Origin: Thioalkalivibrio sp.
Lineage (GTDB): Bacteria > Pseudomonadota > Gammaproteobacteria > Ectothiorhodospirales > Ectothiorhodospiraceae
NCBI GenBank assembly: GCA_007116035.1
Contig: SKJG01000059.1
Location: 1 to 48,656 of the forward strand
Direction of reading: 5' to 3'
DNA length: 48,656 nucleotides
Positions 6,909 through 29,511 of the stretch are shown piece by piece. The translations under genes were made by a program, and so were the position numbers. The notes under the pieces are model-generated. The model was not told the origin of the DNA. It saw only the letters and a list, made by a program, of their open reading frames with translations, and searched no databases. Every line of letters starts with the position of its first letter. Within the stretch, counting starts at the first letter, position 1.

Positions 6909-7592
6909 TCACCACCAGAAAACCCGTCGCCGCGGCCGTATCGGCAGCCGCCCGCGCCAGTACTGGATCAGCAACAGGCCAAACAGCATCCCACCCAGGT
7001 GCGCGAAGTGCGCCACGCCGGCAATCGTGCCGGTGATTCCCGCGAACAGCTCGAAGGCGCCGTAGCCGATCACGAAGTATTTCGCCTTGATCGGAATGGG
7101 CAGGAGAATGAAGATCAGGCGCTGGTTCGGAAACATCATGCCGAAGGCAAGCAGGATGCCGAAGACGCCACCGGAAGCGCCAATGGTCGGGTAGATTTCC
7201 TCGTTCAAAACGCCGTGCGAGGCCACCGCGAGCTGAATCAGACCAGCGCCGACGACGCACACGAAGAAATAGATCGCGAACAGGCGTGATCCCCAGGCAT
7301 TCTCCAGTTGCACACCCAGCATCCACATCGCGAACAGGTTCAGGAACAGGTGCAGCAGGCCGCCATGCAGGAAGCCATAGCTGACCAGTTGCCAGATCTG
7401 GAACTGGGGCACCCAGACCATCTCACCGTTCTGCTCGATGACCTCGGGTGTGCCGACCGGCCAAAGCGCGAAGTTCACCAGCAGGGGCTCGAAGGCAAAG
7501 AGTTGCAGGATGAACACGAGGCCGTTTGCGATCAGCAGAAAGCTGATCACCGGCGGAAACAGCACACGACGCGGTTCGAACGGTTCGTTCAT
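6909..7592 (-). CDS. Rhomboid-family intramembrane serine protease
   Basis: A 227-residue polytopic membrane protein with six hydrophobic segments. The rhomboid signatures are present: HLFLNLFAMW (Asn85 in the oxyanion region), GASGGVFG with nucleophile Ser140, and AHFAHLGGM, where His198 is the expected catalytic base. These cleave transmembrane substrates within the inner membrane. The N-terminus is cytoplasmic and short, and the C-terminus carries a basic RPRRRVFWW tail. The frame is open upstream to about 7655, but MNEPFEPRR at 7592 fits the family, and the upstream part overlaps a MITE relic. No strong ribosome-binding site is visible for the chosen start. Substrates cannot be guessed from the neighbours. 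Confidence 0.9.
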   Translation of the reverse strand: MNEPFEPRRVLFPPVISFLLIANGLVFILQLFAFEPLLVNFALWPVGTPEVIEQNGEMVWVPQFQIWQLVSYGFLHGGLLHLFLNLFAMWMLGVQLENAWGSRLFAIYFFVCVVGAGLIQLAVASHGVLNEEIYPTIGASGGVFGILLAFGMMFPNQRLIFILLPIPIKAKYFVIGYGAFELFAGITGTIAGVAHFAHLGGMLFGLLLIQYWRGRLPIRPRRRVFWW

Positions 7593-7642
7593 CGACAGGA
7601 GCCCTCGGGAAGCGGTTGCGTAAGCGAACAGCACTGGCTGCG

Positions 7643-7658
7643 CCGCATGGCCCACTAG
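7643..7658. repeat. MITE end relic (CCGCATGGCCCACTAG)
   Basis: This 16-base stretch is identical to the right terminal end of the MITE at 22855-23018, including the flanking CTAG. Just inside it, CACTGGCTG also matches the inner right part of that MITE, with the intervening bases missing. No left end is visible nearby, so this looks like an internally deleted remnant lying upstream of the rhomboid gene. Confidence 0.55.
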
Positions 7659-7661
7659 CGT

Positions 7662-7692
7662 CCGCCGGCTGATCGACGCTGCCAGCCGGCGG
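7662..7692. other. CCGCCGGCT/AGCCGGCGG hairpin after a gene end
   Basis: A perfect 9-bp stem with a 13-base loop lies just downstream of the stop of the minus-strand gene that ends at 7711. It may act as a transcription end or RNA-stability structure. It has no T-run, so intrinsic termination is unproven. Confidence 0.4.
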
Positions 7693-7710
7693 TGGCAGGC
7701 GGATGACCTG

Positions 7711-8418
7711 CTAGTTCACTGGCAGGCGGGTCCGAAGTTCGTCCCGATCGAACCACCAGTGGTCGCCCACGATCGCATCGAGCATCCGGCCCAGTCGCTT
7801 TAACAGGGTATCGGTATTGTTGAGCTCGTACATCTCGATCCAGGTGTCCAGCGTTTCCTGATCCTCGATTCCGCGGTGCCGCCGTGCGACCCTGGCGATG
7901 ATCTGCGTGGTCAGGAAGATCAGGCTGTCGCGCTCCCTGCCCTCCGTGCGCAAACCGGCAATGTAATGCGCCATCATCGCGGCGACGGCGGCGCCGTCGG
8001 ACTGCTCGGGCGTCTCATCCACGATGTGACCGAGCATCGCGACCGTGGTCTGCGCCTTCACCGGGTAGGTCACACTCAGCCACACACCCTGACCCAGGGC
8101 AAGGATGGAATCTTCCTGCTCGGCCCGGTACAGCACGTCGCAGGTCTCGACGGCCTCCTGCCAGTCGCCCGCGGCCACCAGCGGCTCCACCAGCGGACGC
8201 ACCGTATCCCAGGCCTCTTTCCCCCGCTCCAGACCGATCAGGGCTTCCCCCATGTCCAGCAGCACATGGGCGCGATGCACGAGAGCGGCGTTTTCGGGCA
8301 GCGCAGCCAGATGGGCCCGGTGCTCTGCGAGCTGCTGCTCCAGCACCGCCCGGCTCTCGGGACCGATGCTGCCGGAGAGGAAGCTTCCAGGAGTGGATGG
8401 TGGGGTATGGTCTGCCAT
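7711..8418 (-). CDS. Helical repeat-like cytoplasmic protein, unknown function
   Basis: A 235-residue protein, not recognised as a named family. It has no signal peptide or membrane segment. The sequence is rich in alanine/leucine helices with regular spacing (for example RAVLEQQLAEHRAHLAALP, AALVHRAHVLLDMGEALIGL, DWQEAVETCDVLYRAEQ), which resembles a TPR-like helical hairpin array. The C-terminal part includes TLDTWIEMYELNNTDTLLKRLGRMLDAI and an acidic-aromatic DHWWFDRDE. The start at MADHTPPS was chosen because the 21 extra upstream residues look unlike coding sequence; no clear Shine-Dalgarno is present at either. It probably serves as a scaffold or adaptor, but nothing here identifies a partner. 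Confidence 0.7.
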   Translation of the reverse strand: MADHTPPSTPGSFLSGSIGPESRAVLEQQLAEHRAHLAALPENAALVHRAHVLLDMGEALIGLERGKEAWDTVRPLVEPLVAAGDWQEAVETCDVLYRAEQEDSILALGQGVWLSVTYPVKAQTTVAMLGHIVDETPEQSDGAAVAAMMAHYIAGLRTEGRERDSLIFLTTQIIARVARRHRGIEDQETLDTWIEMYELNNTDTLLKRLGRMLDAIVGDHWWFDRDELRTRLPVN

Positions 8419-8484
8419 AGGAAGGATCTGCCTGACGCTCGAGCGAGCCTGCTTTGTACCGAAGCGGCTCGGGCTTGGCAATAT

Positions 8485-9171
8485 TCAGCGGTGGCCGTGC
8501 CCGGCATCGCCACCTATCAAGGGTACGAAGATCACGGACAGCGCCCTGCGCTTCTTCAGGCTGCCGTCTTCCTGCTTGACCCCAACGAACAGGTCCTGCC
8601 CCGTCCATTGCGCATCCACCGGAATCACCAGCCGGCCCCCGGTCCGGAGCTGTTCTACCAGGGCCGGGGGAATCTCGTCGGCGCCCGCGGTCACGATGAT
8701 GGCATCGAACGGCGCGGCCTCGGGCCAGCCGTCTCGGCCATTGCCCGCGCGCACGTGAACGTCGCGGTAACCCAGGCGCTCCAGGGTGGCCGACGCGGTC
8801 TCGGCGAGTTCGGGCACCACTTCGATACTGAAGACCTCGCCCGCCAGCTCCGCCAGGATCGCGGCCTGGTAACCCGAACCGGTACCGATCTCCAGGACCC
8901 GGCTCTCCGGCGTGAGCGCCAGCAGCTGCGTCATCAGGGCGACGACGAAGGGCTGCGAGATGGTCTGGCCCTGCCCGATCGGCAGGGCCCGGTTCTCCCA
9001 GGCGCTGCGGGCCGCCGCACCGGGAACAAATTCATTCCTGGGCACCCTGCGCAACGCCTCGACCAGGCGCTGATCCGGCGCACTGACCCCGGTCGTGTGC
9101 GCGGTCTCGCGAAAATCCCGTACAACGTCGTGGATCAGAGCCTCGATCCGGCGATCATCCTCGTCGCTCAT
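8485..9171 (-). CDS. pcm: Protein-L-isoaspartate O-methyltransferase
   Basis: A 228-residue enzyme that methylates L-isoaspartyl residues in damaged proteins using S-adenosylmethionine, starting their repair. The family signatures are VPRNEFVPG, GQTISQPFVVALMTQLL, the SAM-binding loop VLEIGTGSGYQAAIL, and DAIIVTAGADEIPPALVEQL. The start at 9171 is decided by GGGGGAG, which ends nine bases upstream; the ATG at 9180 would directly abut that sequence and the longer frame to 9240 is unlikely. The CBS-domain gene ends 65 bases upstream on the same strand, so the two may be co-transcribed. Length and motifs are normal. Confidence 0.95.
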   Translation of the reverse strand: MSDEDDRRIEALIHDVVRDFRETAHTTGVSAPDQRLVEALRRVPRNEFVPGAAARSAWENRALPIGQGQTISQPFVVALMTQLLALTPESRVLEIGTGSGYQAAILAELAGEVFSIEVVPELAETASATLERLGYRDVHVRAGNGRDGWPEAAPFDAIIVTAGADEIPPALVEQLRTGGRLVIPVDAQWTGQDLFVGVKQEDGSLKKRRALSVIFVPLIGGDAGHGHR

Positions 9172-9236
9172 GCCTGCCATCTCCCCCGCGCAGCTGCTTT
9201 CCTGCGCCGCTGCACGCAAGTGCAATGAAAGCTTGC

Positions 9237-9665
9237 TCAACTGGCGATGTAGAGCTCCAGCTGAGAAATGATGAACTGCTGTTCATCGATAATGGACTTG
9301 ACCAGGTCCCCGATCGAAACCAGGCCGACCAGTTGCCCGTCCTGCAGCACAGGCAGATGGCGCACCCGCTTGTCCGTCATCAGGGCCATGCATTCCTCGA
9401 CGGTCCGCGTGGGGCTCACGCAGGGCACCCGGGTCATCATGATGTCCCGCACCCGGGTTTCGCTCGAACTGCGATCGAGCAGGATCACCTTGCGGGCATA
9501 GTCACGCTCCGAGATCAGGCCGACCAGCCGCTCGCCGTCGACTACGGGCAAGGCACCGATCTCCTGTTCCGACATCAGACGGAGGGCGTCCAATACGCTG
9601 TGATCTGGACCGATCCTGTACAGATCGTGCCCCTTTTCGTTCAGGATTTCCTGGACGGTCTTCAT
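9237..9665 (-). CDS. CBS-domain pair protein
   Basis: A 142-residue cytoplasmic protein made of two CBS domains. The first (about residues 8-66) contains DALRLMSEQEIGALPVVDGERLVGLISERDYARK (described in parts), and the second (about 76-130) contains VEECMALMTDKRVRHLPVLQDGQLVGLVSIGDLVK. Stand-alone CBS pairs bind adenosine nucleotides such as AMP, ATP or SAM and act as energy sensors, but the target of this one cannot be told. GGGAGG lies about eight bases before the ATG. It is followed by pcm on the same strand. Confidence 0.9.
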   Translation of the reverse strand: MKTVQEILNEKGHDLYRIGPDHSVLDALRLMSEQEIGALPVVDGERLVGLISERDYARKVILLDRSSSETRVRDIMMTRVPCVSPTRTVEECMALMTDKRVRHLPVLQDGQLVGLVSIGDLVKSIIDEQQFIISQLELYIAS

Positions 9666-9755
9666 CGGCGGTCCTCCCGCTTTACTGTGCGTTACCCCTC
9701 AGTCTAGTCGTGATTTTCGCGAACGGGGCTTCGGGCGCCAGGGCCATCCACGCCG

Positions 9756-10640
9756 TCAGCGCCCGTGGCCATCCCAGTCGAAACCGGAAAGCTGTGCCAG
9801 TTCGCGCGGCTGCAGGACCTCCTCGAAACGCCGCCCATGGATCACCCAGGTCGGGTAGGTGGCGATTCCGGCCGCCACGCACACCTGGGCCATCGGCGTT
9901 CCGCGCCCACCCGGGCTGCATTCCACGTAGGGAAGGCGATCACTCGCGGCTCCGAACAGCCGCGCCTGATTCCGGCAACTCGGGCACCAGGACGCGCCGT
10001 AATACCGTACCCCGGACTCTTCCAGGTGCGTCGCCAACGCCGCCAACCGGGGATTTTCGGGCCGCGAGAGGAGATCGCTGGAGTAGAGATGCAGGGCGAC
10101 GACGACCGCCAGTCCGGTGCCGGCGCTGCGCAGCAGCCAAGGACTCCAGGCCATCCCCGGAGCCGAGGCGGGGCGCCGCAGGAAGAGCGCGATCAATAGC
10201 GCGCTGATGGTGGCCAGGGAAACGAGGCACCAGGGGCAGAAGGCGTCCAGGACCAACCAGCCGACGGCCGTCAGGTAGAGGCTGACGGAAACCCCGACGA
10301 AGGCCAGGAACCAGAGGCGGCGCCAACGCTTCAGCTTGGACGGCATGCGGAAGGCGATCAACCCCAGCAGCGCGTAGAGAAGGAGCCCCCACAGCGACAT
10401 GGGCAGACCCAGCAGGGTGGACCACTCACTCTGCTGGATCAGGTCGCAGCCCGATCCCTCCGCACAGAAGGCCGGCGCCGCGCTCAGCCAGGTTCCCGCG
10501 GTCAGGTACGCCGTGACCGCCACCCCGACCAGCGCCAGCCCGACGACCACCCAGTCGGGTTGCTTCCGGCCCGCTCCAACGGTTGCCGCGCCCTTTGCCG
10601 CCTGTGGCGAACCCTTGGCCTTGCGCCTTGCCTTTGCCAT
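9756..10640 (-). CDS. VKOR-thioredoxin fusion, periplasmic disulfide-forming protein
   Basis: A 294-residue membrane protein joining a vitamin K epoxide reductase domain to a thioredoxin-like domain. After a basic N-terminus (many Lys/Arg/Ala to residue 29), the VKOR part has about five membrane segments with the loop pair Cys59/Cys65 and the quinone-site CPWC (Cys135, Cys138). The C-terminal domain (about 205-294) has the CPSC active site (Cys219, Cys222), and a cis-proline region at ATYPTW. Such fusions replace the DsbA/DsbB pair by passing electrons from substrate thiols to quinone. AGGAGG about seven bases before the ATG at 10640 supports this start rather than the longer frame. Two further cysteines, 241 and 254, lie in the thioredoxin part. 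Confidence 0.92.
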   Translation of the reverse strand: MAKARRKAKGSPQAAKGAATVGAGRKQPDWVVVGLALVGVAVTAYLTAGTWLSAAPAFCAEGSGCDLIQQSEWSTLLGLPMSLWGLLLYALLGLIAFRMPSKLKRWRRLWFLAFVGVSVSLYLTAVGWLVLDAFCPWCLVSLATISALLIALFLRRPASAPGMAWSPWLLRSAGTGLAVVVALHLYSSDLLSRPENPRLAALATHLEESGVRYYGASWCPSCRNQARLFGAASDRLPYVECSPGGRGTPMAQVCVAAGIATYPTWVIHGRRFEEVLQPRELAQLSGFDWDGHGR

Positions 10641-10746
10641 CGATTTCCTCCTTGCTCCAGAACAGCCAGAGTAAACGATAAAACCCGGTTCGGAGGTAGA
10701 CCCGCGGCATGGGCCACTCGCAGCACCCGCCTGACAGCCCACTCGT

Positions 10747-11523
10747 TCAGCGCACGGGCTCTCCCAGTCTGCTGAGTTCATCCAGTTCCTGCTTGAGCTC
10801 GCCGATCGCGAAGGTCTCGATCATCTGTACTCCCCGACGGTGCAGATACAGGGCGAGCACTGCGCTGGCAACCTCATAGACCGCGATGCGGGCACCGGGA
10901 AACCGGATCTCCCCGGCGCGCGGCAATCCGTCGATCGCACAAAAGAGATATTCCGGCCGCAATTGCCGCAGTGCCGCGCGCTGACGCCAGCGGCTGATCA
11001 CCGCGCCGATCGCGTGCCAGCCCAGCGGCCCGGGCGCCCCCTCGAGACGCCCGCGCGCTGCCTCCAGAAGCGGGAGGGCGAAGGAAATCAGCACACAGCG
11101 TTCCGACACCGGCCGGAGTTCCACGCCGATCGCATCCAGAACCCGGACGATCCCGAAGTGCTTGATCGCGACCGCCTTCACTTCGACAAAGGCGATGATT
11201 TCAGGGTGGGTCTCGAGAAACCGTCGGAACTGCGCGAGACTTGCCAGACCCGTGCCGGCAAATCGCTCCCCGAAGCGGCGCGGTTCCGTCGCCGCAAGCT
11301 GCTCAAGGTCCCGAAACCGACGCCGGTGCACGGCGCCGGACACCGAACACATGCGCCGGAGGCCTCGGTCGTGAAACAGCACCGGCACGCCGTCCGCAGA
11401 GAGCTGCACGTCCACCTCGACGAAGCGCGCCCCGGCGTCCGCCGCAGCTTCCAGTGCCGGCAGGGTGTTCTCCGGGTACCGCGCGGCGTAGCCGCGGTGG
11501 GCAATCAATTCAGGGACGAGCAT
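10747..11523 (-). CDS. ugpQ: Glycerophosphodiester phosphodiesterase
   Basis: A 258-residue GDPD-family enzyme that hydrolyses glycerophosphodiesters to glycerol-3-phosphate and an alcohol. The N-terminal signature IAHRGYAARYPENTLPALEAA holds the catalytic His and Glu, and EVDVQLSADGVPVLFHDRGL holds the metal ligands and second His. FVEVKA further on is also conserved. No signal peptide is present, so a cytoplasmic UgpQ-like role is likely. GGAG lies about seven bases before the ATG at 11523. The glycerol kinase gene ends 80 bases upstream on the same strand, so both may feed glycerol-3-phosphate. Confidence 0.92.
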   Translation of the reverse strand: MLVPELIAHRGYAARYPENTLPALEAAADAGARFVEVDVQLSADGVPVLFHDRGLRRMCSVSGAVHRRRFRDLEQLAATEPRRFGERFAGTGLASLAQFRRFLETHPEIIAFVEVKAVAIKHFGIVRVLDAIGVELRPVSERCVLISFALPLLEAARGRLEGAPGPLGWHAIGAVISRWRQRAALRQLRPEYLFCAIDGLPRAGEIRFPGARIAVYEVASAVLALYLHRRGVQMIETFAIGELKQELDELSRLGEPVR

Positions 11524-11603
11524 GGCCAGACTCCAGCATCGACAGGCCGCGGCGCCCTCGGGATCCCGTTGGTGTTCATCTCCCCACGGACAGAAATCCC
11601 GGT

Positions 11604-13115
11604 TCAGTCCTCGTCGCGTGCCCAACCCCGGGACAGAGCTACGGCACGATGCCAACGCCGGAAAAGACGTTCCCGCCTGGGCTCAGCGAGCTGCGGAGTA
11701 TAGCGGTTGCGCACCCGCCACTTCTCGGCGAGCTCCGCACGGTCCTGCCAGAAACCCGTCGCCAGGCCCGCGAGGTAGGCGGCACCCAGCGCGGTGGTCT
11801 CGACAATCTCCGGGACCACCACCGCGCTGTCCAGGATATCCGCCTGGAACTGCATCAGCATCGGGTTCAAAGCGGCGCCACCGTCGCAGCGCAGTTCCGC
11901 CAGCCGAATGCCCGAGTCCCGCTGCATCGCCTCGAGCACGTCACGCGTCTGATAGGCAATACTCTCGAGCACCGCGCGGGCGACATGGGCCCGGGTGGTG
12001 CCCCGGGTAATGCCGATCAGCAGTCCGCGGGCATACGGATCCCAGTGCGGTGCGCCCAGGCCGGTGAGCGCGGGAACGAAATAGACCCCGTCATTATCGG
12101 TCACGGAGGCCGCCAGTTCGGCTGTCTCGGACGCGGATTCGATCATGCCCAGACCATCCCGCAACCACTGTACGGCCGACCCGGTGACGAAGATCGCCCC
12201 CTCCTGTGCATACTCCACCGGCTCGTCGCCAATGCCCCAGGCAATCGTCGTCAGCAGTCGCTGCTGGCTGGGTACGGCCTCTGTCCCGGTGTGCTGGAGC
12301 ACGAAAGAACCCGTTCCATAGGTGTTCTTGGCCATCCCCGGGCGATAACAGGCCTGCCCGAAAAGGGCCGCCTGCTGATCGCCGGCGATCCCGGCAATCG
12401 GGATGGGCCGCGTGCCCAGGAACAGCTCCGGGTCGGTCTGGGCGTAGATCCAGGACGACGGCATCACCTCGGGCAGCATCGCCTTCGGGATGTCGAGCAG
12501 TTCCAGCAGATCGTCATCCCAGCGCAGTTCGTGGATGTTGTACAACAGCGTACGCGAGGCGTTCGAGTAGTCGGTCACGTGCGTCCAGCGGCCACTCAGA
12601 CGGTAGACCAGCCAGGAGTCGATGGTGCCGAAGGCAATGCCGCCACTCCGTGCCCGCTCGCGCAGACCCGATTCGTGATCCAGCAGCCATCCGATCTTGG
12701 TGCCGGAGAAATAGGGATCCAGCAGCAATCCGGTCCTGTCCTGCACCCAGGCCTCGAGCCCTTGCTCGCGCAGTGCTTCACAGGCCGGTGCGGTGCGTCG
12801 ATCCTGCCAGACGATGGCCCGACCCACCGGCTTGCCGCTGGACTTGTCCCACAGCACCGCGGTTTCCCGCTGGTTGGTGATGCCAATCCCCAGGAGATCC
12901 GCGGCGCGCAGACCACCCTCGCGCAACGCCTCCTCGATCACCCGCAAGGCCACCATCAGGATCTCTTCGGCATCGTGCTCCACCCAGCCGGACCGAGGAT
13001 AGTACTGGGTGAACTCCGAATAGCCCCGGGCGCGAATCCGCCCTGCGTGATCGAACACCAGAGCGGTGATTCCGGTGGTGCCGGCATCGATCGCCAGGAT
13101 GTAGCGTTCCTTCAT
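11604..13115 (-). CDS. glpK: Glycerol kinase
   Basis: A 503-residue FGGY-family kinase making glycerol-3-phosphate from glycerol and ATP. The N-terminal phosphate loop [18 protein letters not shown], the block [16 protein letters not shown], the substrate-region WQDRRT, and the C-terminal FGGY-type [21 protein letters not shown] are all visible. The length matches GlpK. GAGAGG precedes the ATG at 13115, and that start gives the family N-terminus; the frame stays open for 18 further codons upstream without similarity. No glpF or glpD is adjacent; the downstream gene is a GDPD. Confidence 0.95.
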
Positions 13116-19260: not shown

Positions 19261-19998
19261 TCAGCCGTGCGCGAGCCCGTGGGCAACCAGCAGGTCGTGG
19301 TCCGGCGGACCTCCGGTGGCGCGGCTGTCGAATACGACCCGATGATCGTCAGACAGGATCACGATACGCTCGCCCAGTTGTGGCACCAGGGCCATCTGAT
19401 GCGTCGCGACCACGGAGGTGATGGGCCGCCCGCGCAGCCACTCCAGCAGCCAGCCAACGGTTCGCGGGTCGAGGTTCGCGGTCGGTTCATCCAGCAGCAG
19501 AACCTCTGGCTCGACGGCCAGGAGACACGCAAGGCACAGCCGCTGTTTCTCGCCGCCCGACAGTTCGAAGGGCGGAGCATCCAGGAAGTCCTGCAGTCGC
19601 AGCCGGTCGGCCCAGTGCCGGATCCGGTCCGCTCGCTCCGGTTCCGACAGATGCCGAAGGCCGAAGCCGATCTCGTCGCGGACCGTCGGATTGAACAGCA
19701 TCGACTCGGGGTGCTGGAACATCAGCACGACCCGCCGGCGGAAGTCGCGCTGCCAGTCGCGGTCCTTCAGCGTTTGCTGGTCGACCCTCCTCCCGCCAAA
19801 GCGGAATTCCCCGCTGGTGGGCACGATCAGCCCGTCGAGCACCCGCAGCAGGGTGCTCTTGCCGCAGCCGTTGGTGCCCAGGAGCACCACGCGCTCGCCC
19901 GGCTCGATGGCCAGGTCGATGCCCTCCAGCGCCCTGCGGCCATTCGGGTAGGCGACGGCAACCTGCTCCAGTTCCAGCAACGGAACCGGTTCAGTCAT
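19261..19998 (-). CDS. nikO: Nickel ECF transporter ATPase NikO (CbiO family)
   Basis: A 245-residue ABC ATPase of the energy-coupling-factor type. Walker A is GTNGCGKST, the signature is LSGGEKQR, Walker B is VLLLDEPTANLD, and the switch histidine is in VVATHQMALV. The segment MFQHPESMLFNPTVRDEIGFG is the characteristic Q-loop form of EcfA/CbiO proteins. The start lies inside the end of nikQ (8-base overlap), so translation is coupled. It is the last gene of the five-gene unit. Family membership alone does not separate nickel from cobalt; the NikK/NikL-like genes and the nearby nikR point to nickel. Confidence 0.9.
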   Translation of the reverse strand: MTEPVPLLELEQVAVAYPNGRRALEGIDLAIEPGERVVLLGTNGCGKSTLLRVLDGLIVPTSGEFRFGGRRVDQQTLKDRDWQRDFRRRVVLMFQHPESMLFNPTVRDEIGFGLRHLSEPERADRIRHWADRLRLQDFLDAPPFELSGGEKQRLCLACLLAVEPEVLLLDEPTANLDPRTVGWLLEWLRGRPITSVVATHQMALVPQLGERIVILSDDHRVVFDSRATGGPPDHDLLVAHGLAHG

Positions 19999-20548
19999 GC
20001 AGGGCACCGCGCGAGCGCATCGCCTGCGTCACCATCTCCGCGTTGTGCACACCCTTGTCCAGCGCGGCGAGGCCGATCGTCGCGCTGCCCTGATAGCGTT
20101 GCTGCAGCGTGGGCGCGACCACCGTACGGCTCTTCTGGGCAGCGCGGTAATCCTGGGCCAGCCGGCGGAAGAGCTGGATCTGACCGCGCACGATCACCAG
20201 CCAGCGACGGGCCCGTGGCCAGCGCACCAGCGCGAGGTCGAGATCGACGTCACGCACCATCCAGGCGGTCAGCAGCGCCAGGACCACGACCCTCAGGTTG
20301 ATCAGCAGCAGCGCGCCGAGCACTGGTTGCCCCGTCAGCCATCCCATGAACAGGATCCCCGACGAGAGCAGCAGCAGAATCCAGAGCACCGGCCGCCCCG
20401 CGCGAAGCAGGAGTGCGGGGCGGCCGGAACCGGAGAGCAGAAGAAGCCCGGCGAGCACGAGCAGCAGCACGCGCGGGTCATGGATCAGCGTGACCGCAAT
20501 CACCGCACTGAGGTAGAGAGCGAAGCGAACCGGATGCGACAGAAGCAT
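19991..20548 (-). CDS. nikQ: Nickel ECF transporter transmembrane component NikQ (CbiQ family)
   Basis: A 185-residue membrane protein of the EcfT/CbiQ type with about four or five hydrophobic segments, starting MLLSHPVRFALYLSAV. The coupling region near the C-terminus has QAMRSRG, a form of the EcfT x-R-x motif that docks on the ATPase. It is shorter than many CbiQ proteins, which are usually above 200 residues. GGGAGG lies about nine bases before the ATG at 20548, and the gap to the upstream nikM stop is four bases, so the start is well supported. It links the NikM substrate subunit to NikO. Confidence 0.85.
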   Translation of the reverse strand: MLLSHPVRFALYLSAVIAVTLIHDPRVLLLVLAGLLLLSGSGRPALLLRAGRPVLWILLLLSSGILFMGWLTGQPVLGALLLINLRVVVLALLTAWMVRDVDLDLALVRWPRARRWLVIVRGQIQLFRRLAQDYRAAQKSRTVVAPTLQQRYQGSATIGLAALDKGVHNAEMVTQAMRSRGALHD

Positions 20549-20552
20549 GACT

Positions 20553-21215
20553 TCAGGCCTCCCGCCCGCAGGCCGCGGGTATCCAGCAGCGTCTGCGTGC
20601 ATGCCGCCAGATCAACAGGGTCAGGACCGCCTCGGCCAGCCCGATGAACAGGTGCGGCAGCAGGATCGCCGGCAGGGTCACCGACCAGCCGAAGGGGAAG
20701 AAGCGCGGGCTGCCATCCGGACCCTGGGCGATCAGCGGTTGCAGACCCAGGACCAGTGCCACCAGCAGGGCGGAAAAGAGGATCGAGACGAACACGGCGG
20801 CAAGCACCGCAAAGTCGGCCTGGACATGCCGCAGGAGATGGAACAGCAGGTAGGCGGTCCAGGCGCCGATGAAACCCATGGCCAAAGCATTCACGGGCAG
20901 TGCGGTGATGCCGCCCGCGCCCATGACCAGCGCCTGCAGCACGAGAACGAGGGTGTAGGCAAGAAACGCAACCCAGGGCCCGAACACCAGCGCCAGCAGC
21001 CCCACGCCGATCGCGTGACCGGAGGTCCCGCCCGGGAGCGGCAGCATCAGACTCGACAGCACAAAGGCCAGTGCGGTGAACACCGCGAGCCGCGGCAGGG
21101 CCTCGTCCCCCACCTGCCGCGTGAACGCGCGCGCCGCCCACCACCACAAGGGTACGGCCACGGCCAGCGCGGGAAGGTAGGTCTGCGGCGAGATCAGTCC
21201 GTCAGGGATATGCAT
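20553..21215 (-). CDS. nikM: Nickel ECF transporter substrate-binding membrane subunit NikM (CbiM family)
   Basis: A 220-residue membrane protein that begins MHIPDG. In the CbiM/NikM family this N-terminal stretch enters the membrane and its first residues coordinate the metal, so the start at 21215 is fixed by chemistry although the frame is open upstream. Other family features are SSLMLPLPGGTSGHAIGVGL and LQALVMGAGGITALPVNALAMG, then six to seven membrane helices. CbiM and NikM cannot be separated by these motifs; the nickel assignment comes from NikK/NikL-like partners and nikR. The upstream gene stops one base before this start. Confidence 0.92.
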   Translation of the reverse strand: MHIPDGLISPQTYLPALAVAVPLWWWAARAFTRQVGDEALPRLAVFTALAFVLSSLMLPLPGGTSGHAIGVGLLALVFGPWVAFLAYTLVLVLQALVMGAGGITALPVNALAMGFIGAWTAYLLFHLLRHVQADFAVLAAVFVSILFSALLVALVLGLQPLIAQGPDGSPRFFPFGWSVTLPAILLPHLFIGLAEAVLTLLIWRHARRRCWIPAACGREA

Positions 21216-21216
21216 G

Positions 21217-21723
21217 TCAGGCGGGCCGGTGACGGGCGCGACGCCCGCGCCAGAGCGCGATGAGACCAAAGACCCCCAGCAGGTAACCGATCCCCGCCGT
21301 CAGGCGCGCGGGCTGCGAGAGCCCGGCGCCGGCCCCGCCGGCGCTCGCCGCCCCTTCCCGGCCGACGTCAACCCGCACTTCTGCGCCATGTCCGTCCTCG
21401 GTGGCGACGACGACCCGCCAAGTACCGGGTCGGTCCGGGCGAAAACTCACCTCGCCGACCGCATTGATCCGGCCGCTTTGAAACGGCCGCGTGTCGTCCG
21501 GGGCCATGACCCGGTAGGCCTCGAAGTAGGGTTTGTCGCCGTCGGGGAAAAGGAACTGCACGACGGCGGCTTCGCCCACAGAGGACTCATGCAGCAGGGC
21601 GTGCGCCAACGCACTCGAACCGGGCGGCAACAGCAGCAACCCGGCAAGCGCCGCGATCAGGCACGCTTCGCGCCTGCGCCGCTGGGCACCCGTACGCAAC
21701 CGTCGCCGCAGGGACACGCTCAA
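21217..21723 (-). CDS. nikL: NikL-like periplasmic/membrane-anchored accessory component
   Basis: A 168-residue protein with an N-terminal signal or anchor (about residues 22-40, AALAGLLLLPPGSSALAHA), a beta-sandwich domain and a C-terminal membrane helix (about 142-160) before a basic tail. The mature N-terminus, with HALLHESS, fits the small accessory proteins found with NikMQO. The domain resembles carboxypeptidase-regulatory-like folds: GEVSFRPDRPGTWRVVVATEDGHG. The start overlaps the upstream nikK stop by four bases and its stop lies one base before nikM. A role in presenting nickel to NikM is inferred from context. Confidence 0.75.
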   Translation of the reverse strand: MSVSLRRRLRTGAQRRRREACLIAALAGLLLLPPGSSALAHALLHESSVGEAAVVQFLFPDGDKPYFEAYRVMAPDDTRPFQSGRINAVGEVSFRPDRPGTWRVVVATEDGHGAEVRVDVGREGAASAGGAGAGLSQPARLTAGIGYLLGVFGLIALWRGRRARHRPA

Positions 21724-22550
21724 CGCACCACGAAGGTCAGGGTCGAGTGGTACGACCTGCGATCACAGATCGACGGATCGGGGAAGTCCTCTCCCGCGTG
21801 CGCCAGAACCAGCCACTGGCCGGCGACGGCCGGAACGAAACGGGCGACACCCTCGGCGTTCGTGGCCACACGGACCGCGTAGGCCTCCTCACCTTGCCCC
21901 TCGTATCCCGCGTAGGTCGCACGAATCTCGCCCGTCCAGGGCGCGCCGTGAAGCAGGACCCGGACCTCCAGCGGATCCCCGGTGCGCAGCACCGCCGGAT
22001 CGCTCAGCGGAAACAGTTCCAGGGCGTGGCCCTGTTCCCGTGCCCAGGCTTCGCCCGCGCCACCGCCCAAGACGGCCTTCATCACGTTTGCCGACTGGCT
22101 GCAACTGAATGCGTCCGGATACTGTTCGCGGGAGGCGCGCCGCCCGCCCTCGTGGGTGCGGCTCCAGAAGCTCAAGTTCTGTTCAACGACGAGCATATAA
22201 GTACCATCGCCGAGGGGCGGCAGCGGGTGAAGTTCGTCATCCGCCAGCGCCAACTCATGCGCTACCCCGCCGGGTGCGATCAGCCGGACCGCCTGCAACT
22301 GATGCGGCCCCAAGCGGCCCTCGGCGGGAAACCGGTGACCGAAATGAACCCGGAACGCCGGGCCGGCGTCTCCCTGCGCGACGGTGATCCAGGGGTAATG
22401 CGCCAGCACCGGGGCAGATATCGCAGCCAAGGCGAAGGCCGCAAGAGCCAGCAACACGGTGCGGAACAGGTGGAACAGGCGTCGAGATCCAGTCTTGAAC
22501 GGGCTCGCGCCGGGCCCTGTCGATGGCCACTTGTAGAGTTCTGCCTTCAT
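21720..22550 (-). CDS. nikK: NikK-like periplasmic protein (DUF4198)
   Basis: A 276-residue exported protein, the first gene of the unit. A basic N-terminal stretch is followed by a hydrophobic segment (about residues 30-50) ending in APVLAHYPWITV. Having a His directly after signal cleavage is typical of DUF4198 metal-uptake proteins. Later motifs include YMLVVEQNLSFWSRT, ELFPLSDPAVLRTGDPLEVRVLLHG, and a closing SICDRRSYHSTLTFVV. NikK-like proteins accompany nickel ECF transporters of the NikKLMQO type, probably as periplasmic metal-binding components. The start is 16 bases from a perfect inverted repeat (22566-22597) that is a candidate NikR site. Confidence 0.8.
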   Translation of the reverse strand: MKAELYKWPSTGPGASPFKTGSRRLFHLFRTVLLALAAFALAAISAPVLAHYPWITVAQGDAGPAFRVHFGHRFPAEGRLGPHQLQAVRLIAPGGVAHELALADDELHPLPPLGDGTYMLVVEQNLSFWSRTHEGGRRASREQYPDAFSCSQSANVMKAVLGGGAGEAWAREQGHALELFPLSDPAVLRTGDPLEVRVLLHGAPWTGEIRATYAGYEGQGEEAYAVRVATNAEGVARFVPAVAGQWLVLAHAGEDFPDPSICDRRSYHSTLTFVVR

Positions 22551-22858: not shown

Positions 22859-23018
22859 TGGGCCATGCGGAAAGTTCGGTACCAGATCGCTTCGCCAGAA
22901 GCACCGGCGCTGCGTTGGGCAAGTTTGAAATAGGCCCACTATTCCTGCACTTGCCCGCCTTGCTCCGGTGCCACTGGCTGTGCTCCTTAGGCACCGAACT
23001 TCCCGCATGGCCCACTAG
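22855..23018. mobile_element. MITE 2, 164 bp, different termini, abutting MITE 1
   Basis: The ends are CTAGTGGGCCATGCGG and CCGCATGGCCCACTAG, extended by AAGTTCGGT on the left and ACCGAACTT on the right. Internally GCCAGAAGCACCGG and CCGGTGCCACTGGC also pair imperfectly. It shares the CTAG at 22855-22858 with MITE 1. Its right end overlaps the 3' end of the ggt coding sequence and provides its last codons and stop. A shortened relic of the same end is at 7643-7658. Confidence 0.75.
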
Positions 23019-24609
23019 CCTCCGACGAAGGTCCCGGTGCCCTTTGGACGACGCCCCCACGCCGTGAATCGCCAGTGCCGAAGAACCCTTCGGGTCCGCG
23101 GGCCACCGCGTGCACACCACCGAAGAACAGGCTCCGATCCGCCCACAGGCGATGCTCGGGATGGCGGGCCAGGAAGGCGGAGAAATCGGCATCGAAGCCA
23201 AAGCCGGCCTCGACACTGAGGAGCTGGTTCTCGAAATGAATGCGCGGGGCATCGACCGCCTTGTCCAGGGGCATCCTGAAATCCAGCAGGTTCACCAGCA
23301 CCTGCAGGATCGCGGTGCGGATGCGGTTGGAGCCGCCGGAGCCCAGCGCGACCTCGCCGCCGTCGGCGCGCACCACCAGGGTCGGTGCCATCATCGAGGT
23401 CAGCCGCTCATCCTCCCGCCAGCGGAAGAAACCGCCGGGGTTGAGATCCTGCTCCCCGAGCATATTGTTCAACATGACGCCGGTATCCGGAATCAGCCTG
23501 CCGCAGCCCTCCCCGTTGCTGGCGGTCAGGCTGGCGACGTTGCCCTTGCCATCCATCACGCTGATTTGCGTGGTTCCCCGAAGCGCGGGGCTCAACCCCC
23601 GTAGTTCCCGCAGATACCGGTCCAAAAGAGCCGGCTCCAGCAGTGCCCAGGCATCGACGGATCCGTCGTCGTCGGACATCGCTTCCAGACGCGCCCGGTC
23701 GGTCAGGGCCATCACCCGCGACAACCTCTCGAGATGTCGCGTCGAGCCGAAAGGATCCTCGGGGATATCCATGGCCTCCAGCAGTTTCAAGGCAAAAGCG
23801 AGGAGGATTCCTCCCGACGAGGGGGGCGGATTGGTCCAGATCCGATGCCCCCGGTAATCCAGGGCCAGCGGCTCCCGGTACTCCGCACGGTACTCGCGGA
23901 GGTCTTCCAGTCGCAGCAGACCGCCGTCCCGCCGGCTCAGGTCTGCCAACAGATGCGCGAATTCACCCTCGTAGAACCACGGTTCGCCCTCACGAGCCAG
24001 ACGTTCGAGGACGTCGGCCAGGTCCGTCTGGCGGAGCAGGTCGCCTTCCACCACCAGCGAGCCGGGGCGGGTGGGACTCGCGAACAGGGCGCGCGAGTCC
24101 TCCGAATGGGCATAGATCGCCTCGACGATCCTAAAGGCATGGGCCTGCAGCGCATTGACGCGGACCCCGTCGCGCGCCAGCCGCACGGCGGGTTCCACCA
24201 GCACGTGCATCGGGAGGGATCCCAGGCTGCGATGCGCGGCAAAGAGGCCACGCACCATGCCGGGTGTGGCCACGGAGCCAAGGCCGATGTGGAACTCCTG
24301 CTGGGCGTCGCCGAAATCGGCGACGATCGGGAGAAACTCGATCTCGTCCACCGGCCGCTTGTACCGCGGGGTCTGCACGAAGAAGTCCAGTGCCTGCACG
24401 GGACCGCGCCCCTGCCTGGCCAGCAGAAACCCTCCGCCTCCAAGCGAACAGAGCACCGGTTCCGCGACGCAGGCAGCAAACTGTCCGGCGATCACCGCGT
24501 CGAAGGCGTTCCCCCCGGCGTCGAGGATCGTGGCAGCCGCCTCCGCGGTGGCGGGATGCCCGGCCGCTGCTACACCCCCTGCGCTCACCGTCCTGCCACC
24601 GTCTCCCAC
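22987..24609 (-). CDS. ggt: Gamma-glutamyltransferase family protein (cytoplasmic form), MITE-altered C-terminus
   Basis: A 540-residue N-terminal-nucleophile hydrolase of the gamma-glutamyltranspeptidase family. SAGGVAAAGHPATAEAAATILDAGGNAFDAV is the family start. The autocatalytic nucleophile is Thr346 in GTTQISVMD. NPPPSSGG, SNGEGCGRLIPDTGVMLNNML and PTLVVRADGGEVALGSGGSNRI are further signatures. No signal peptide is visible, unlike the periplasmic glutathione enzymes. The GTG at 24609 is 21 bases after the nikR stop; a second GTG (codon 8) is also possible. The last residues (about 532-540, SGPCGKFGA) and the stop are encoded by the MITE, so the native end was changed. The substrate is uncertain; the operon position with hypX and nikR is unusual. 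Confidence 0.88.
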   Translation of the reverse strand: MGDGGRTVSAGGVAAAGHPATAEAAATILDAGGNAFDAVIAGQFAACVAEPVLCSLGGGGFLLARQGRGPVQALDFFVQTPRYKRPVDEIEFLPIVADFGDAQQEFHIGLGSVATPGMVRGLFAAHRSLGSLPMHVLVEPAVRLARDGVRVNALQAHAFRIVEAIYAHSEDSRALFASPTRPGSLVVEGDLLRQTDLADVLERLAREGEPWFYEGEFAHLLADLSRRDGGLLRLEDLREYRAEYREPLALDYRGHRIWTNPPPSSGGILLAFALKLLEAMDIPEDPFGSTRHLERLSRVMALTDRARLEAMSDDDGSVDAWALLEPALLDRYLRELRGLSPALRGTTQISVMDGKGNVASLTASNGEGCGRLIPDTGVMLNNMLGEQDLNPGGFFRWREDERLTSMMAPTLVVRADGGEVALGSGGSNRIRTAILQVLVNLLDFRMPLDKAVDAPRIHFENQLLSVEAGFGFDADFSAFLARHPEHRLWADRSLFFGGVHAVARGPEGFFGTGDSRRGGVVQRAPGPSSEASGPCGKFGA

Positions 24610-24630: not shown

Positions 24631-25098
24631 TCACCGATCATGCTCGTGCCCGTGCCCGTGATGGGGGCCCGCCGCCGGCCGCTTCTCTGGCGCGTGTTCC
24701 AGGGGGATCCGGTGCAGCTGCCCGTGCCGTATGCCGGGTCGCGCCACGACCGATTCGGCAAAGGCCTGGACGTCGCTGGCCTTGCCCCTGAGCAGCACGG
24801 ATTCGACGCAGAGGTCGTGGTCCAGGTGCATATGCAGCGTGGTGACGGTCAGGTTGTAGTGGGCATGGTGTGCCTGGGTCAGGCGCTTGCTCAACTCGCG
24901 TTCGTGATGGTCATACATGTAGCTCAGCACGCCAACGCAGGCGCCGTCCTGATCGGGATCCAGGCGTTCGGTGGCCAACGCACCCCGGATCAGGTCACGG
25001 ACCGCCTCCGACCGGTTGCTGTACCCCTTGCGCTTCATGAAGGCGTCGAACTCCTGCGCCAGACCGGGTTCGACGGAGACCGTGAAACGTTCGCTCAT
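24631..25098 (-). CDS. nikR: Nickel-responsive transcriptional regulator NikR with His-rich tail
   Basis: A 155-residue ribbon-helix-helix repressor. The DNA-binding domain is MSERFTVSVEPGLAQEFDAF followed by MKRKGYSNRSEAVRDLIRGAL. The C-terminal ACT-like domain has all expected nickel ligands: a His in HHAHYNL, the HMH pair in TLHMHLDHDLC and the Cys of that motif, equal to His76, His87, His89 and Cys95 of E. coli NikR. It ends in HHGHGHEHDR, a histidine-rich extension not found in E. coli NikR. The ATG overlaps the hypX stop by four bases, so the regulator is co-translated with hypX. AAGGA about eight bases upstream supports the start. nikKLMQO is the likely target. Confidence 0.95.
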   Translation of the reverse strand: MSERFTVSVEPGLAQEFDAFMKRKGYSNRSEAVRDLIRGALATERLDPDQDGACVGVLSYMYDHHERELSKRLTQAHHAHYNLTVTTLHMHLDHDLCVESVLLRGKASDVQAFAESVVARPGIRHGQLHRIPLEHAPEKRPAAGPHHGHGHEHDR

Positions 25099-26840: not shown

Positions 26841-26888
26841 GGCGGACGCCAGCATAGCAACCGCCGATCCGCCCCGCGAGGCGGCGCC

Positions 26889-27989
26889 CTACGCGTATTC
26901 GGCGAGGCGGACGGGTTGACGCCGGGAGCCCCAGTTGCCGGGGCGAGGTTCGAAGTGCCCGGCGAGTGGTGTCGCGCAGACGCTGCAGCAACCATCCCGG
27001 TCCAGATTCCAGCCGGTGATCTCGTAGCCGGAGCGCCCGATGAGGCGCTGACCGCAGGCATGACAGTACGTAGACTGCCCGGCCGGATCGTAGGCGTTGC
27101 CCGTGTAGGCATACCGAAGCCCCGCATCCAGCGCGATGCGCCGGGCGCGGCGCAGGGTCTGCACCGGCGTCGGCGGATGACCGGTCATCCGGAAGTCGGG
27201 GTGGAACGCACTGAAGTGCATGGGTACCTGCGGCCCAAGTCTGTCCACGACCCAGTCGCACATCTTTCGGATCTCGTCGTCGCTGTCGTTTTCCCCAGGA
27301 ATCAGCAGGGTGGTCAGTTCCACCCAGACCTTCGTTTCCCGGACCAGCCACTCGAGGTTGTCCAGCACGGGCTGCAGGTGGGCACCCGTCAGCCGGTGAT
27401 AGAAACGTTCGGTGAAGGCCTTCAGGTCCACGTTTGCTGCGTCCATGCCGGCGTAGAACTCGGCCCGCGCCTCCTCGCTGATGTAGTTCGCGGTGACCGC
27501 AACCGTGCGTACGCCAGCGTCGCGGCACGCGGCCGCGACATCCTGGGCGTACTCGTGAAAGATCACCGGATCGTTGTAGGTGAAGGCCACCGAGCGGCAA
27601 CCCGATGCCACGGCTGCGCGGGCGATCGTCGCCGGATCGGCGCGATCCATCAGGGTGTCGAGTTCGCGCGACTTGCTGATGTCCCAGTTCTGGCAGAATT
27701 TGCAGGCGAGATTGCAGCCGGCGGTACCGAAGGACAGCACCGGGGTACCCGGCAGGAAATGGTTCAGCGGTTTTTTCTCGATCGGGTCGATGCAGTAGCC
27801 GCTGGAACGCCCGTAGGTCGTCAAGACCACCGCGCCATCCAGGTTGGCTCGCACGAAGCAGGCACCCCGCTGACCGGGCTTCATCCGGCAAAGCCTGGGG
27901 CACAGATCGCACTGGACACGGCCATCCGCCAACGTCCGCCAGAAGCGGGTCGGAACGGTGAACTCATCCCTGCCGACAACCTCCGTCAT
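26889..27989 (-). CDS. amrS: AmmeMemoRadiSam system radical SAM enzyme
   Basis: A 366-residue radical SAM protein related to pyruvate formate-lyase activators. The [4Fe-4S] motif is CNLACKFC near residue 92, preceded by an N-terminal CDLCPRLCRMKPGQRGAC cluster (cysteines from about residue 27). IDPIEKKPLNHFLPG and SFGTAGCN are the family signatures. A C-terminal region with CHACGQRLIGRSGYEI and CSVCATPL forms a likely zinc ribbon. It is divergent from memo and ammecr1 across a 141-bp intergenic region. The three genes form the AmmeMemoRadiSam system; the reaction is unknown. GGAGAG precedes the ATG. Confidence 0.95.
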   Translation of the reverse strand: MTEVVGRDEFTVPTRFWRTLADGRVQCDLCPRLCRMKPGQRGACFVRANLDGAVVLTTYGRSSGYCIDPIEKKPLNHFLPGTPVLSFGTAGCNLACKFCQNWDISKSRELDTLMDRADPATIARAAVASGCRSVAFTYNDPVIFHEYAQDVAAACRDAGVRTVAVTANYISEEARAEFYAGMDAANVDLKAFTERFYHRLTGAHLQPVLDNLEWLVRETKVWVELTTLLIPGENDSDDEIRKMCDWVVDRLGPQVPMHFSAFHPDFRMTGHPPTPVQTLRRARRIALDAGLRYAYTGNAYDPAGQSTYCHACGQRLIGRSGYEITGWNLDRDGCCSVCATPLAGHFEPRPGNWGSRRQPVRLAEYA

Positions 27990-28130
27990 GTCTCTCCGTC
28001 ATTCTTGAAATATCTTCCTCCTTTCAGACACATGCCCCTTTGCGCAGTTCCGCGCGGGCATCCCGTCCCGGAGACGCAACCGTCGTCCACCGGGATGGTC
28101 CAAGCGTTTAGACGGAAATGAGAGAAGGTC

Positions 28131-28934
28131 ATGAATGCACAACCGAATATTCGCCAACCCGCGGTTGCCGGCCTGTTCTACCCGGAGGATGCGACCACGC
28201 TGAAGCAGCAGATCCTTGCCTTGATGGCGCAGGCGTCTCCGCGCGGCAAGCTGGACTGGCACCCCAAGGCACTGGTCGCCCCGCATGCGGGGCTCCCCTA
28301 CTCCGGGCCGGTGGCTGCCTCGGCCTACGCTGCACTGGGCACCGGCGCGGACCAGATCCGCAAGGTGGTCCTGCTCGGCCCCTCGCACCGGGTACCGTTC
28401 CGCGGCGTCGCAACCACGGCGGCGACCGCGTATCGGACGCCTCTCGGAGAGGTTCCGATCGACCGCACGGCGGTCGATGCCATCGGCGGGCTTCCCGGGG
28501 TGACCCGCCTTGACGAGGCGCATGGGCCGGAACACAGCCTGGAGGTCCATCTGCCGTTTCTGCAGGTGGTCCTGCATGACTTCACGTTGGTGCCTCTGGT
28601 GGTCGGAGAGGCCGGGCCGGAGACCGTTGCAGAGATTCTGGAGCGGCTCTGGGGCGGTCCCGAGACCCTGATCGTCGTCAGCTCGGACCTGTCGCACTAC
28701 CACGACTACCTGACCGCCCAGGCGCTCGACGCGGAAACCTCCCGGGCGATCGAATCCTGTGACGAGGGCCAGCTGGATCCATACACGGCCTGCGGCTACC
28801 AGCCACTGGCGGGTCTTTTGCGGGCGGCGCGCAGGCGCGGTCTGAGAATCGAGACGCTGGACCTGCGCAATTCCGGCGATACCGCCGGTCCGCGCAGGGA
28901 AGTGGTGGGTTATGGCGCCTGGGCGTTCCACTGA
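28131..28934 (+). CDS. amrB: AmmeMemoRadiSam system protein B (Memo family)
   Basis: A 267-residue MEMO1-family protein. The start NIRQPAVAGLFYPEDATTLK is characteristic, followed by ALVAPHAGLPYSGPVAASAYA, VVLLGPSHRVPFRGVA, EHSLEVHLPFLQVVL and VVSSDLSHYHDYLTA. The three conserved His (in PHAGL, EHSLEVH and SHYHDY) correspond to the metal-site histidines described for MEMO-type folds, which resemble class III extradiol dioxygenases. An AMMECR1-domain protein follows. The ATG is preceded by AGAAGG with close spacing. Chemistry is not established. Confidence 0.95.
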   Translation: MNAQPNIRQPAVAGLFYPEDATTLKQQILALMAQASPRGKLDWHPKALVAPHAGLPYSGPVAASAYAALGTGADQIRKVVLLGPSHRVPFRGVATTAATAYRTPLGEVPIDRTAVDAIGGLPGVTRLDEAHGPEHSLEVHLPFLQVVLHDFTLVPLVVGEAGPETVAEILERLWGGPETLIVVSSDLSHYHDYLTAQALDAETSRAIESCDEGQLDPYTACGYQPLAGLLRAARRRGLRIETLDLRNSGDTAGPRREVVGYGAWAFH

Positions 28935-29511
28935 GTCGATGGCCCCGGCCTGGGGCACGGGCGTGCGTGACCGGCTGCTGGAGATCGCCGCGCAGGGCGT
29001 GCGCCATGCGGCGGAACGGCTTCCGACCCCGGTCATCGACCCGCGCCGGGAAACCGGGTTGCTGCTGCATCCCGGCGCCAGCTTCGTCACCCTGAAGCGC
29101 GCGGGGACGCTGCGCGGCTGCATCGGCAGTCTGGAACCCACCCGTCCGCTCGCCGAGGACGTCGCGGAAAACGCCTATGCGGCCGCGCGGCGGGACCCCC
29201 GCTTCCCCGGACTCGAGGTCTGGGAGCTTGCCGGGCTGCAGCTGTCGGTCGCCACCCTCGGGCCCCATGAAACACTGCGCATCGAGACGCGCGACGCGCT
29301 GCTCGCGGCGCTGCGCCCGGGCATCGACGGCCTGGTCGTGCGTAGCGGCGCGCTGAGGGCCACATTCCTGCCCGCGGTGTGGGAGCAGTTGCCGGATCCG
29401 GCGGACTTCATCGACGCGCTGTGGCACAAGGCCCGGCTGACACCGGGCGCATGGCCGGAGCAACTCCAACTCAGCCGCTATCGCGTCGAAACCGTGGACA
29501 CCCGTCTGTGA
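28912..29511 (+). CDS. amrA: AmmeMemoRadiSam system protein A (AMMECR1 domain)
   Basis: A 199-residue AMMECR1-domain protein. The hallmark LRGCIGSLEPTRPLAEDVAENAYAAARRDPRF (in parts) is present, with GCIG giving a conserved Cys. ISVLG-type and DGLVVRSG-like segments follow, with FLPAVWEQLPDPADFIDALWHKA near the end. The ATG at 28912 overlaps the memo gene by 23 bases; a second in-frame ATG at 28939, five bases after the memo stop, is an alternative that gives 190 residues. It is the third part of the AmmeMemoRadiSam set. The function is unknown. Confidence 0.93.
   Translation: MAPGRSTESMAPAWGTGVRDRLLEIAAQGVRHAAERLPTPVIDPRRETGLLLHPGASFVTLKRAGTLRGCIGSLEPTRPLAEDVAENAYAAARRDPRFPGLEVWELAGLQLSVATLGPHETLRIETRDALLAALRPGIDGLVVRSGALRATFLPAVWEQLPDPADFIDALWHKARLTPGAWPEQLQLSRYRVETVDTRL

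Follow-up and report, generated by a model that had tools for sequence, protein, structure and literature searches.

The question raised by this locus is whether an AmmeMemoRadiSam trio that lies next to a hydrogenase maturation gene also takes part in hydrogenase maturation. The locus is found in a 48,656-nt stretch of a Thioalkalivibrio sp. genome (contig SKJG01000059.1 of assembly GCA_007116035.1), which we call the window throughout, and consists of amrS for a radical S-adenosylmethionine (SAM) enzyme, amrB for a Memo-family protein and amrA for an AMMECR1-domain protein, with hypX beside amrS. Memo and AMMECR1 proteins range from archaea to humans, and we know of no reaction that the two share. 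The trio beside hypX, and elsewhere beside hypF, is a bacterial setting which gives a concrete and cheap test of their role. Our results show that the trio is a known kind of system in a clade-specific setting. We consider it probable that this is an ordinary complete AmmeMemoRadiSam system bordering a nickel and hydrogenase support run (hypX, nikR, a gamma-glutamyltransferase gene (ggt) and a nickel energy-coupling factor (ECF) transporter) in one Thioalkalivibrio-like clade, that the trio works apart from hydrogenase assembly and that hypX has its own promoter.

All three proteins pass the curated NCBIfam cut-offs for the AmmeMemoRadiSam system (TIGR04335, TIGR04336 and TIGR04337), and their genes are intact and clustered (table 1). 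The features that mark membership were all found, namely an AmrS with CxxxCxxC, a Memo-family AmrB, an AMMECR1-family AmrA and a cluster of the three genes. As in most related loci where amrB is found, amrS is divergent from amrB-amrA. The coordinates agree with a preliminary description of this DNA, which had reported a complete trio with amrS divergent across 141 bp. It had also placed the amrS stop about 50 bases from the hypX start on the same strand, and we find 48 bp up to the ATG at 26840. Its mention of hydrogenase maturation genes beside the trio holds for hypX but not for other hyp genes: a tblastn search of the window with the genome's own HypB, HypC, HypD, HypE and HypF, hypA not being among the queries, found none. 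In the same assembly HypD and HypC are encoded on contig C103, and HypF, HypB and the hydrogenase large subunit on C161. With a start at 28912, amrA shares 23 bp with amrB, whereas a start at the in-frame ATG at 28939 would put 4 bp between them.

Table 1. Features of the trio, hypX and the adjoining nickel run (positions in the window).
Feature	Position	Strand	Evidence or remark
amrS, AmmeMemoRadiSam radical SAM enzyme, 366 aa	26889..27989	-	TIGR04337 636.5 bits vs cut-off 220
amrB, Memo-family protein, 267 aa	28131..28934	+	TIGR04336 257.4 bits vs cut-off 26; PF01875
amrA, AMMECR1-domain protein, 199 aa	28912..29511	+	TIGR04335 171.8 bits vs cut-off 99; PF01871
amrS/amrB divergent intergenic region, 141 bp	27990..28130		between the two starts
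amrS-hypX intergenic stretch, 48 bp	26841..26888	-	from gene coordinates
Extended -10-like element TGCTATGCT, predicted hypX promoter	26851..26859	-	10 nt before hypX ATG
hypX, CO-producing hydrogenase maturation protein, 581 aa	25095..26840	-	full-length match to solved HypX 6j0p, E 3.4e-177
nikR, nickel-responsive regulator	24631..25098	-	NF002815 181 bits; 4-bp overlap with hypX end
Gamma-glutamyltransferase	22987..24609	-	TIGR00066 377 bits
DUF4198 protein, nickel transporter block	21720..22550	-	PF10670
NikL-like ECF subunit	21217..21723	-	NF058648 49.5 bits, below cut-off 100
CbiM/NikM substrate-binding component	20553..21215	-	PF01891 186.5 bits; match starts at about residue 19 of longer open reading frame
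Probable transmembrane T component	19991..20602	-	position alone; no NCBIfam/Pfam match at E 0.001
ECF transporter ATPase	19261..20007	-	TIGR04521 165 bits, TIGR01166 cbiO 144 bits, both below cut-off

What sets this trio apart from the usual AmmeMemoRadiSam system is its flank of hypX, nikR and a nickel-type transporter. In a family sample of 47 genomes, AmrS is found over the cut-off in 30 and hypX in 12, all of the window's genus. Both genes lie on one contig in 10 genus genomes including the window, and they are adjacent in all 10, co-directional in nine and divergent in one (G381). In the latter, a Thioalkalivibrio paradoxus metagenome-assembled genome (contig the same as L033), amrS is inverted relative to hypX (L151 1-1034 and 1213-2916); the contig end falls within amrS and an assembly fault is possible. 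Contig ends separate the two genes in G393 and G400. The block of amrA-amrB, amrS, hypX, nikR, ggt, DUF4198, nikL, cbiM, the Q and O components and gdh is found in four genomes (G401, G402, G379 and G380), and partially in six others (G396, G399, G400, G403, G394 and G393). For a quick tree we aligned AmrS of the window with that of 97 of 100 loci (98 sequences), leaving out three loci that lack most of amrS. The hypX-adjacent AmrS proteins form one clade with a support of 99 (12 rows, two of which are the same gene), sister to seven AmrS of the genus without hypX. Since they are monophyletic, we read the amrS-hypX adjacency as a single event inherited by descent. A survey of gene neighbourhoods, which had been proposed as a check, thus shows the pairing to be conserved within the clade, but among the genomes examined it is seen only in this one clade of one genus.

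Outside the clade the pairing was not seen. Among 80 AmrS loci of the GTDB contig collection the examined flanks contain amrB in 59 and amrA in 44, many flanks being cut by contig ends, and hypX in only one, a member of the same clade. In the larger class sample described below, hypX lies behind hypD, at most 3.8 kb from it, in 18 of the 20 hypX genomes other than the window. There are 19 class genomes with both amrS and hypX, and the place of amrS, which is listed for part of the class genomes only, is known for 16: it is beside hypX in the window, 145-770 kb away in three and on another contig in 12. Both amrS and hypD could be placed in 90 genomes, on different contigs in 75 and on one contig in 15, where the two closest pairs are separated by 12 kb and 84 kb. 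Six plasmid records carry AmrS at E 1e-60; in the five inspected, two of which have no gene table, the flanks of 7-9 kb gave no tblastn match to hypX, hypB-F or a hydrogenase subunit. The hypX neighbourhood appears to be mostly a local habit of one group of sulfur bacteria, with weak hints of a shared job.

The short gap behind amrS had led to the suggestion that hypX may be transcribed from the amrS promoter. The variable gap, the promoter-like element before hypX and the relative with an inverted amrS make such an operon less likely. From sequence comparison, we think it probable that hypX is transcribed, almost without a leader, from a promoter of its own, because a -10-like element is conserved before it and no Shine-Dalgarno sequence was visible there on inspection by eye. 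All 11 clade members, which are kin and hence not independent, have TANNNT 9-10 nt ahead of the ATG of hypX, and in eight of them it is extended by TGn. It also precedes hypX of G381, where amrS points away. In our controls TANNNT at 8-12 nt occurs at 0 of 25 other gene starts of the window and at 1 of 48 clade starts of amrS, amrB, amrA, nikR, cbiM, gnd and zwf; for hypX genes outside the clade the count is 2 of 20. In the reading we favour, hypX would be read from this predicted promoter directly before its start.

It is rather unlikely, in our estimation, that read-through from the amrS promoter accounts for at least part of hypX expression, which would amount to co-regulation without a common reaction. 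The two genes do share a strand and lie about 50 bp apart in the window, G394 and G401, which are close relatives, and no terminator-like site was found in the gap of the window, but the gap is about 110-350 bp in the other relatives with both genes on one contig and strand, with palindromic repeats inside it in two (G396 and G402). The inverted amrS of G381 and the conserved -10-like element, with no Shine-Dalgarno sequence seen, also speak against read-through. In 80 loci with an open reading frame downstream of amrS, by a rough caller, this frame is co-directional in 47 and at most 100 bp away in 21. Short co-directional gaps are therefore common behind amrS, and such a gap is a weak cue. 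Pattern scans gave results near or below chance, with 7 terminators against 4.9 expected, 1 sigma-70 match against 1.0, and 2 matches against 5.5 for GTATGA-N16-TCATAC, which we take to be the consensus of NikR-type boxes. There was no Rfam match at gathering score. As a separate observation, a repetitive extragenic palindrome (REP)-like sequence, GTGCGGGAGCnTGnTCCCGC, lies between amrS and hypX in two relatives and, in the window's own genome, between hypB and hypF (L148 11398-11622, L147 5986-6005 and L164 4768-4787).

The cysteines of AmrS and the His and Cys ligand positions of AmrB that are predicted to bind metal are invariant. Twelve cysteines are invariant across the 98 AmrS sequences (27, 30, 34 and 44; 92, 96 and 99; 155; 309, 312, 335 and 338), of which C92, C96 and C99 form the radical SAM motif. 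A search of a PDB copy found no AmrS structure, and the sole sequence relatives at E 0.001 were pyruvate formate-lyase (PFL)-activating enzymes. The same enzyme is the nearest fold to an AlphaFold2 model of AmrS (predicted local distance difference test score 81.5; Z 20.9 over 225 residues at 2.8 A), in a structure search covering mainly residues 58-360. The next matches are NifB, RlmN, HydE and lipoyl synthase at Z of about 15, which reflects the common radical SAM core. AmrS differs from the PFL-activating enzyme by its additional invariant N-terminal and C-terminal Cys4 groups, and it scores 55.9 bits against the TIGR02493 cut-off of 231.75, so that it does not classify as an activase of glycyl-radical enzymes of this type. 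In AmrB, H52, H86 and C221 align with H49, H81 and C244 of human MEMO1, which bind iron or copper according to passages of PMC11081632. AmrB thus keeps the His-His-Cys ligands of MEMO1; it is unlike MEMO1 in that it is bacterial and its gene lies in a cluster with those of an AMMECR1 protein and a radical SAM enzyme. The His-His-Glu ligands of LigB-type extradiol dioxygenases were not found, since the third position is Cys221, as it is in MEMO1 in the passages just cited. The predicted metal-binding residues of the trio are intact. A single open reading frame on an Ideonella dechloratans plasmid (L169 7591-8955), adjoining amrS, encodes an AmrB-AmrA fusion, which suggests that AmrB and AmrA cooperate directly.

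We infer from these features a mechanism whose order of steps and substrate are part of the proposal. AmrS would hold a [4Fe-4S] cluster via C92, C96 and C99 and split S-adenosylmethionine with a low-potential electron, placing a radical on a substrate. The N-terminal and C-terminal Cys4 groups may bind additional metal or give the substrate site its shape. AmrB would carry one iron, or copper, on its His-His-Cys ligands and act on this substrate in a second redox step, and AmrA may act in close contact with AmrB.

A more specific idea gives the trio a role in making or modifying a nucleotide base or an isoprenoid-type product, as Burroughs et al. reportedly proposed in 2019 for Memo-AMMECR1-radical SAM contexts. 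We regard this as doubtful. In its favour the AmrS model resembles radical SAM enzymes for peptides, RNA and cofactors, and the Memo domain is placed in the protocatechuate dioxygenase superfamily in an extract of PMC7694686. But we see no recurrent amrS neighbour besides the trio in 87 loci, the next gene clusters reaching at most six loci with rough calls of open reading frames.

The genome-level distribution of AmrS bears on the possible link to hydrogenases. In a class sample of 369 genomes, AmrS is found over the cut-off in 184, HypX at E 1e-40 in 21, HypD in 143 and EKR in 60. The AmrS counts were taken at E < 1e-65, which gives the same tally of 184; some of these may be fragments or paralogs of the second type. 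A stricter E < 1e-120 leaves 175 AmrS genomes, and 18 instead of 19 of the 21 hypX genomes have AmrS. The presence lists were transcribed by hand before analysis, and our one-per-family set comprises G000-G157 minus G106, each taken as a separate family. AmrS is found in 104 of 143 HypD genomes vs 80 of 226 without HypD (odds ratio 4.9), and with one genome per family in 47 of 67 vs 34 of 90 (odds ratio 3.9, p 9e-5). The preliminary description had named the lack of a statistical association as grounds for dropping the link, and an association does exist, but it is not specific to hydrogenases. EKR (PF10371), which we take to be a marker of pyruvate:ferredoxin oxidoreductase (PFOR), is the stronger correlate, with AmrS in 55 of 60 EKR genomes vs 129 of 309 others (odds ratio 15.4; one per family 29 of 31 vs 52 of 126, odds ratio 20.6). 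When both markers are fitted together by logistic regression on the one-per-family set, EKR keeps its effect (z 3.7) and that of HypD is borderline (z 1.9), the hypX term not being estimable. Within HypD genomes AmrS is present in 19 of 21 with hypX vs 85 of 122 without (p 0.062). Anaerobic ribonucleotide reductase, used as a control and present in 37 of 369 genomes, shows a weak association (AmrS in 24 of 37, p 0.058). Low-oxygen, ferredoxin-based metabolism accounts for more of the statistical link. This agrees with an enrichment of AMMECR1 in anaerobes, 50.66% vs 3.38% of aerobes by one reading of a table in PMC13386939, an excerpt of which also lists EKR as an anaerobe marker. The tracking of AmrS with EKR possibly reflects a dependence on electron supply.

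Within the genus the association with hydrogenase is not significant, with AmrS in 10 of 12 genomes that have a full or nearly full large subunit vs 10 of 18 others (p 0.24-0.26). In the family, full-length hydrogenase without over-cut-off AmrS is found in G391 (listed as 100% complete), G374, G411 and G395 (80% complete), and in genus genomes that are at least 90% complete AmrS occurs without full hydrogenase in G378, G383, G386, G387, G388, G392 and G405. Among the 23 genus genomes of that completeness, seven have AmrS without full hydrogenase and one (G391) has the reverse. AmrS is therefore not present wherever [NiFe]-hydrogenase is, as G391, G374, G411 and the 39 of 143 HypD genomes without AmrS show. 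In our preferred reading the trio would be separate from hydrogenase assembly and would follow low-oxygen, ferredoxin-dependent metabolism. The interpretation in the preliminary description, with its suggestion of a link with one-carbon, metal or redox chemistry, is supported in part: the predicted metal-binding residues are intact and an association with HypD exists, but PFOR correlates more strongly and the genus taken alone gives no significant association (p 0.24).

Several observations weigh against this separation. Clade members whose AmrS is 83-86% identical to that of the window still have amrS beside hypX. In the one-per-family set, AmrS is found in 10 of 10 hypX genomes vs 37 of 57 other HypD genomes (p 0.027). 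When EKR genomes are removed, AmrS is still present in 61 of 97 genomes with HypD vs 68 of 212 without, or 25 of 44 vs 27 of 82 with one per family (p 0.013), and in a logistic fit of all 369 genomes HypD (z 4.4) and EKR (z 4.6) both stay. Many gene pairs lie on different contigs of draft assemblies, which does not prove that they are distant. Furthermore, hypF, amrS and amrB are consecutive on one strand in Candidatus Thiodiazotropha (L079, L094, L098 and L100, at about 7550-11950), with hypF directly upstream of amrS at a gap of 36-81 bp and amrB directly downstream. HypF was confirmed by TIGR00143 in L100 (833 bits) and L079 (830 bits), while L094 and L098 rest on tblastn. Here amrA lies apart in L100 (135-710) and was not found in the other three loci, and AmrS falls elsewhere on the quick tree than the hypX-adjacent clade. 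The chance of two independent hyp adjacencies is between P 0.013 and 0.098 under assumed gene numbers, and we regard the two separate adjacencies as suggestive only.

These observations raise the question whether the trio could be an accessory of [NiFe]-hydrogenase maturation that, for example, deals with damage, iron or a one-carbon unit at the Fe(CN)2CO stage, chiefly where cells are exposed to oxygen and use HypX as well. We consider this quite unlikely. The co-occurrence of AmrS with HypD and hypX, a hyp gene beside amrS in two separate lineages and the iron binding of the AmrB homolog MEMO1 (in passages of PMC11081632) would fit such a role; full hydrogenases without AmrS, the 80 of 226 genomes that carry AmrS without HypD, the stronger PFOR correlation, the absence of a significant association within the genus and the wide spacing of amrS and hypD would not. 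A functional link between trio and hydrogenase is possible but not favoured. Very unlikely, in our view, is the broader claim that AmmeMemoRadiSam helps to assemble or repair [NiFe]-hydrogenases and has been overlooked in this role; AmrS would do the radical chemistry, and AmrB would deliver or hold iron or else handle a diatomic ligand. If true, it would explain the hypX and hypF adjacencies and the HypD co-occurrence, and the helper would be dispensable for many hydrogenase bearers. We rejected the idea that AmrS generally supplies hydrogenases with their CO ligand where HypX is lacking, as 37 HypD genomes have neither HypX nor AmrS. We infer the absence of a functional link, and if the link indeed fails, surveys of this kind would mark a short co-directional gap as weak evidence and ferredoxin-linked low-oxygen metabolism as the better correlate.

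The support run next to the trio begins with a well-defined HypX. Its match to 6j0p covers residues 1-567, and an extra in-frame ATG would move the start to 26855. Both a formyltransferase-like N-terminal and a crotonase-like C-terminal domain are present, as expected for the family, although PF00551 scores 25.4 bits, just below its cut-off of 26.1. The residues H74, D80, D109, Y425 and E435 correspond to the five catalytic residues proposed for Aquifex aeolicus HypX (H74, D80, D109, Y416 and E426) in the part of PMC6802093 that describes them. The protein is thus like the CO-synthesising HypX (HoxX), whereas its gene is not beside hypD or hypE as is common elsewhere in the class. In openly licensed PMC papers we found none joining any two of hypX, nikR and Thioalkalivibrio, or describing a hypX gene cluster with nikR, and AMMECR1 was not found in the main text of PMC6520446, a match for AMMECR1 and hydrogenase. 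A gamma-glutamyltransferase gene lies between nikR and the nickel transporter, a position kept across the clade.

The window's genome also encodes a second AmrS-type protein on contig C4 of G000 (L006 6781-7938), which scores 325.5 bits, over the cut-off. Its N-terminus looks, by eye, like a signal sequence, and neither a Memo nor an AMMECR1 gene was noticed alongside. A selenocysteine in this protein was considered and rejected, the in-frame TGA being a true stop. The gene that follows it (7940-9166, minus strand) encodes a further cysteine-rich protein that resembles radical SAM enzymes; at E 1e-20 it matches no NCBIfam family. In the window itself (462-3755) we find a cobalamin adenosyltransferase (PF01923) followed by what appear, by eye, to be B12 uptake genes.

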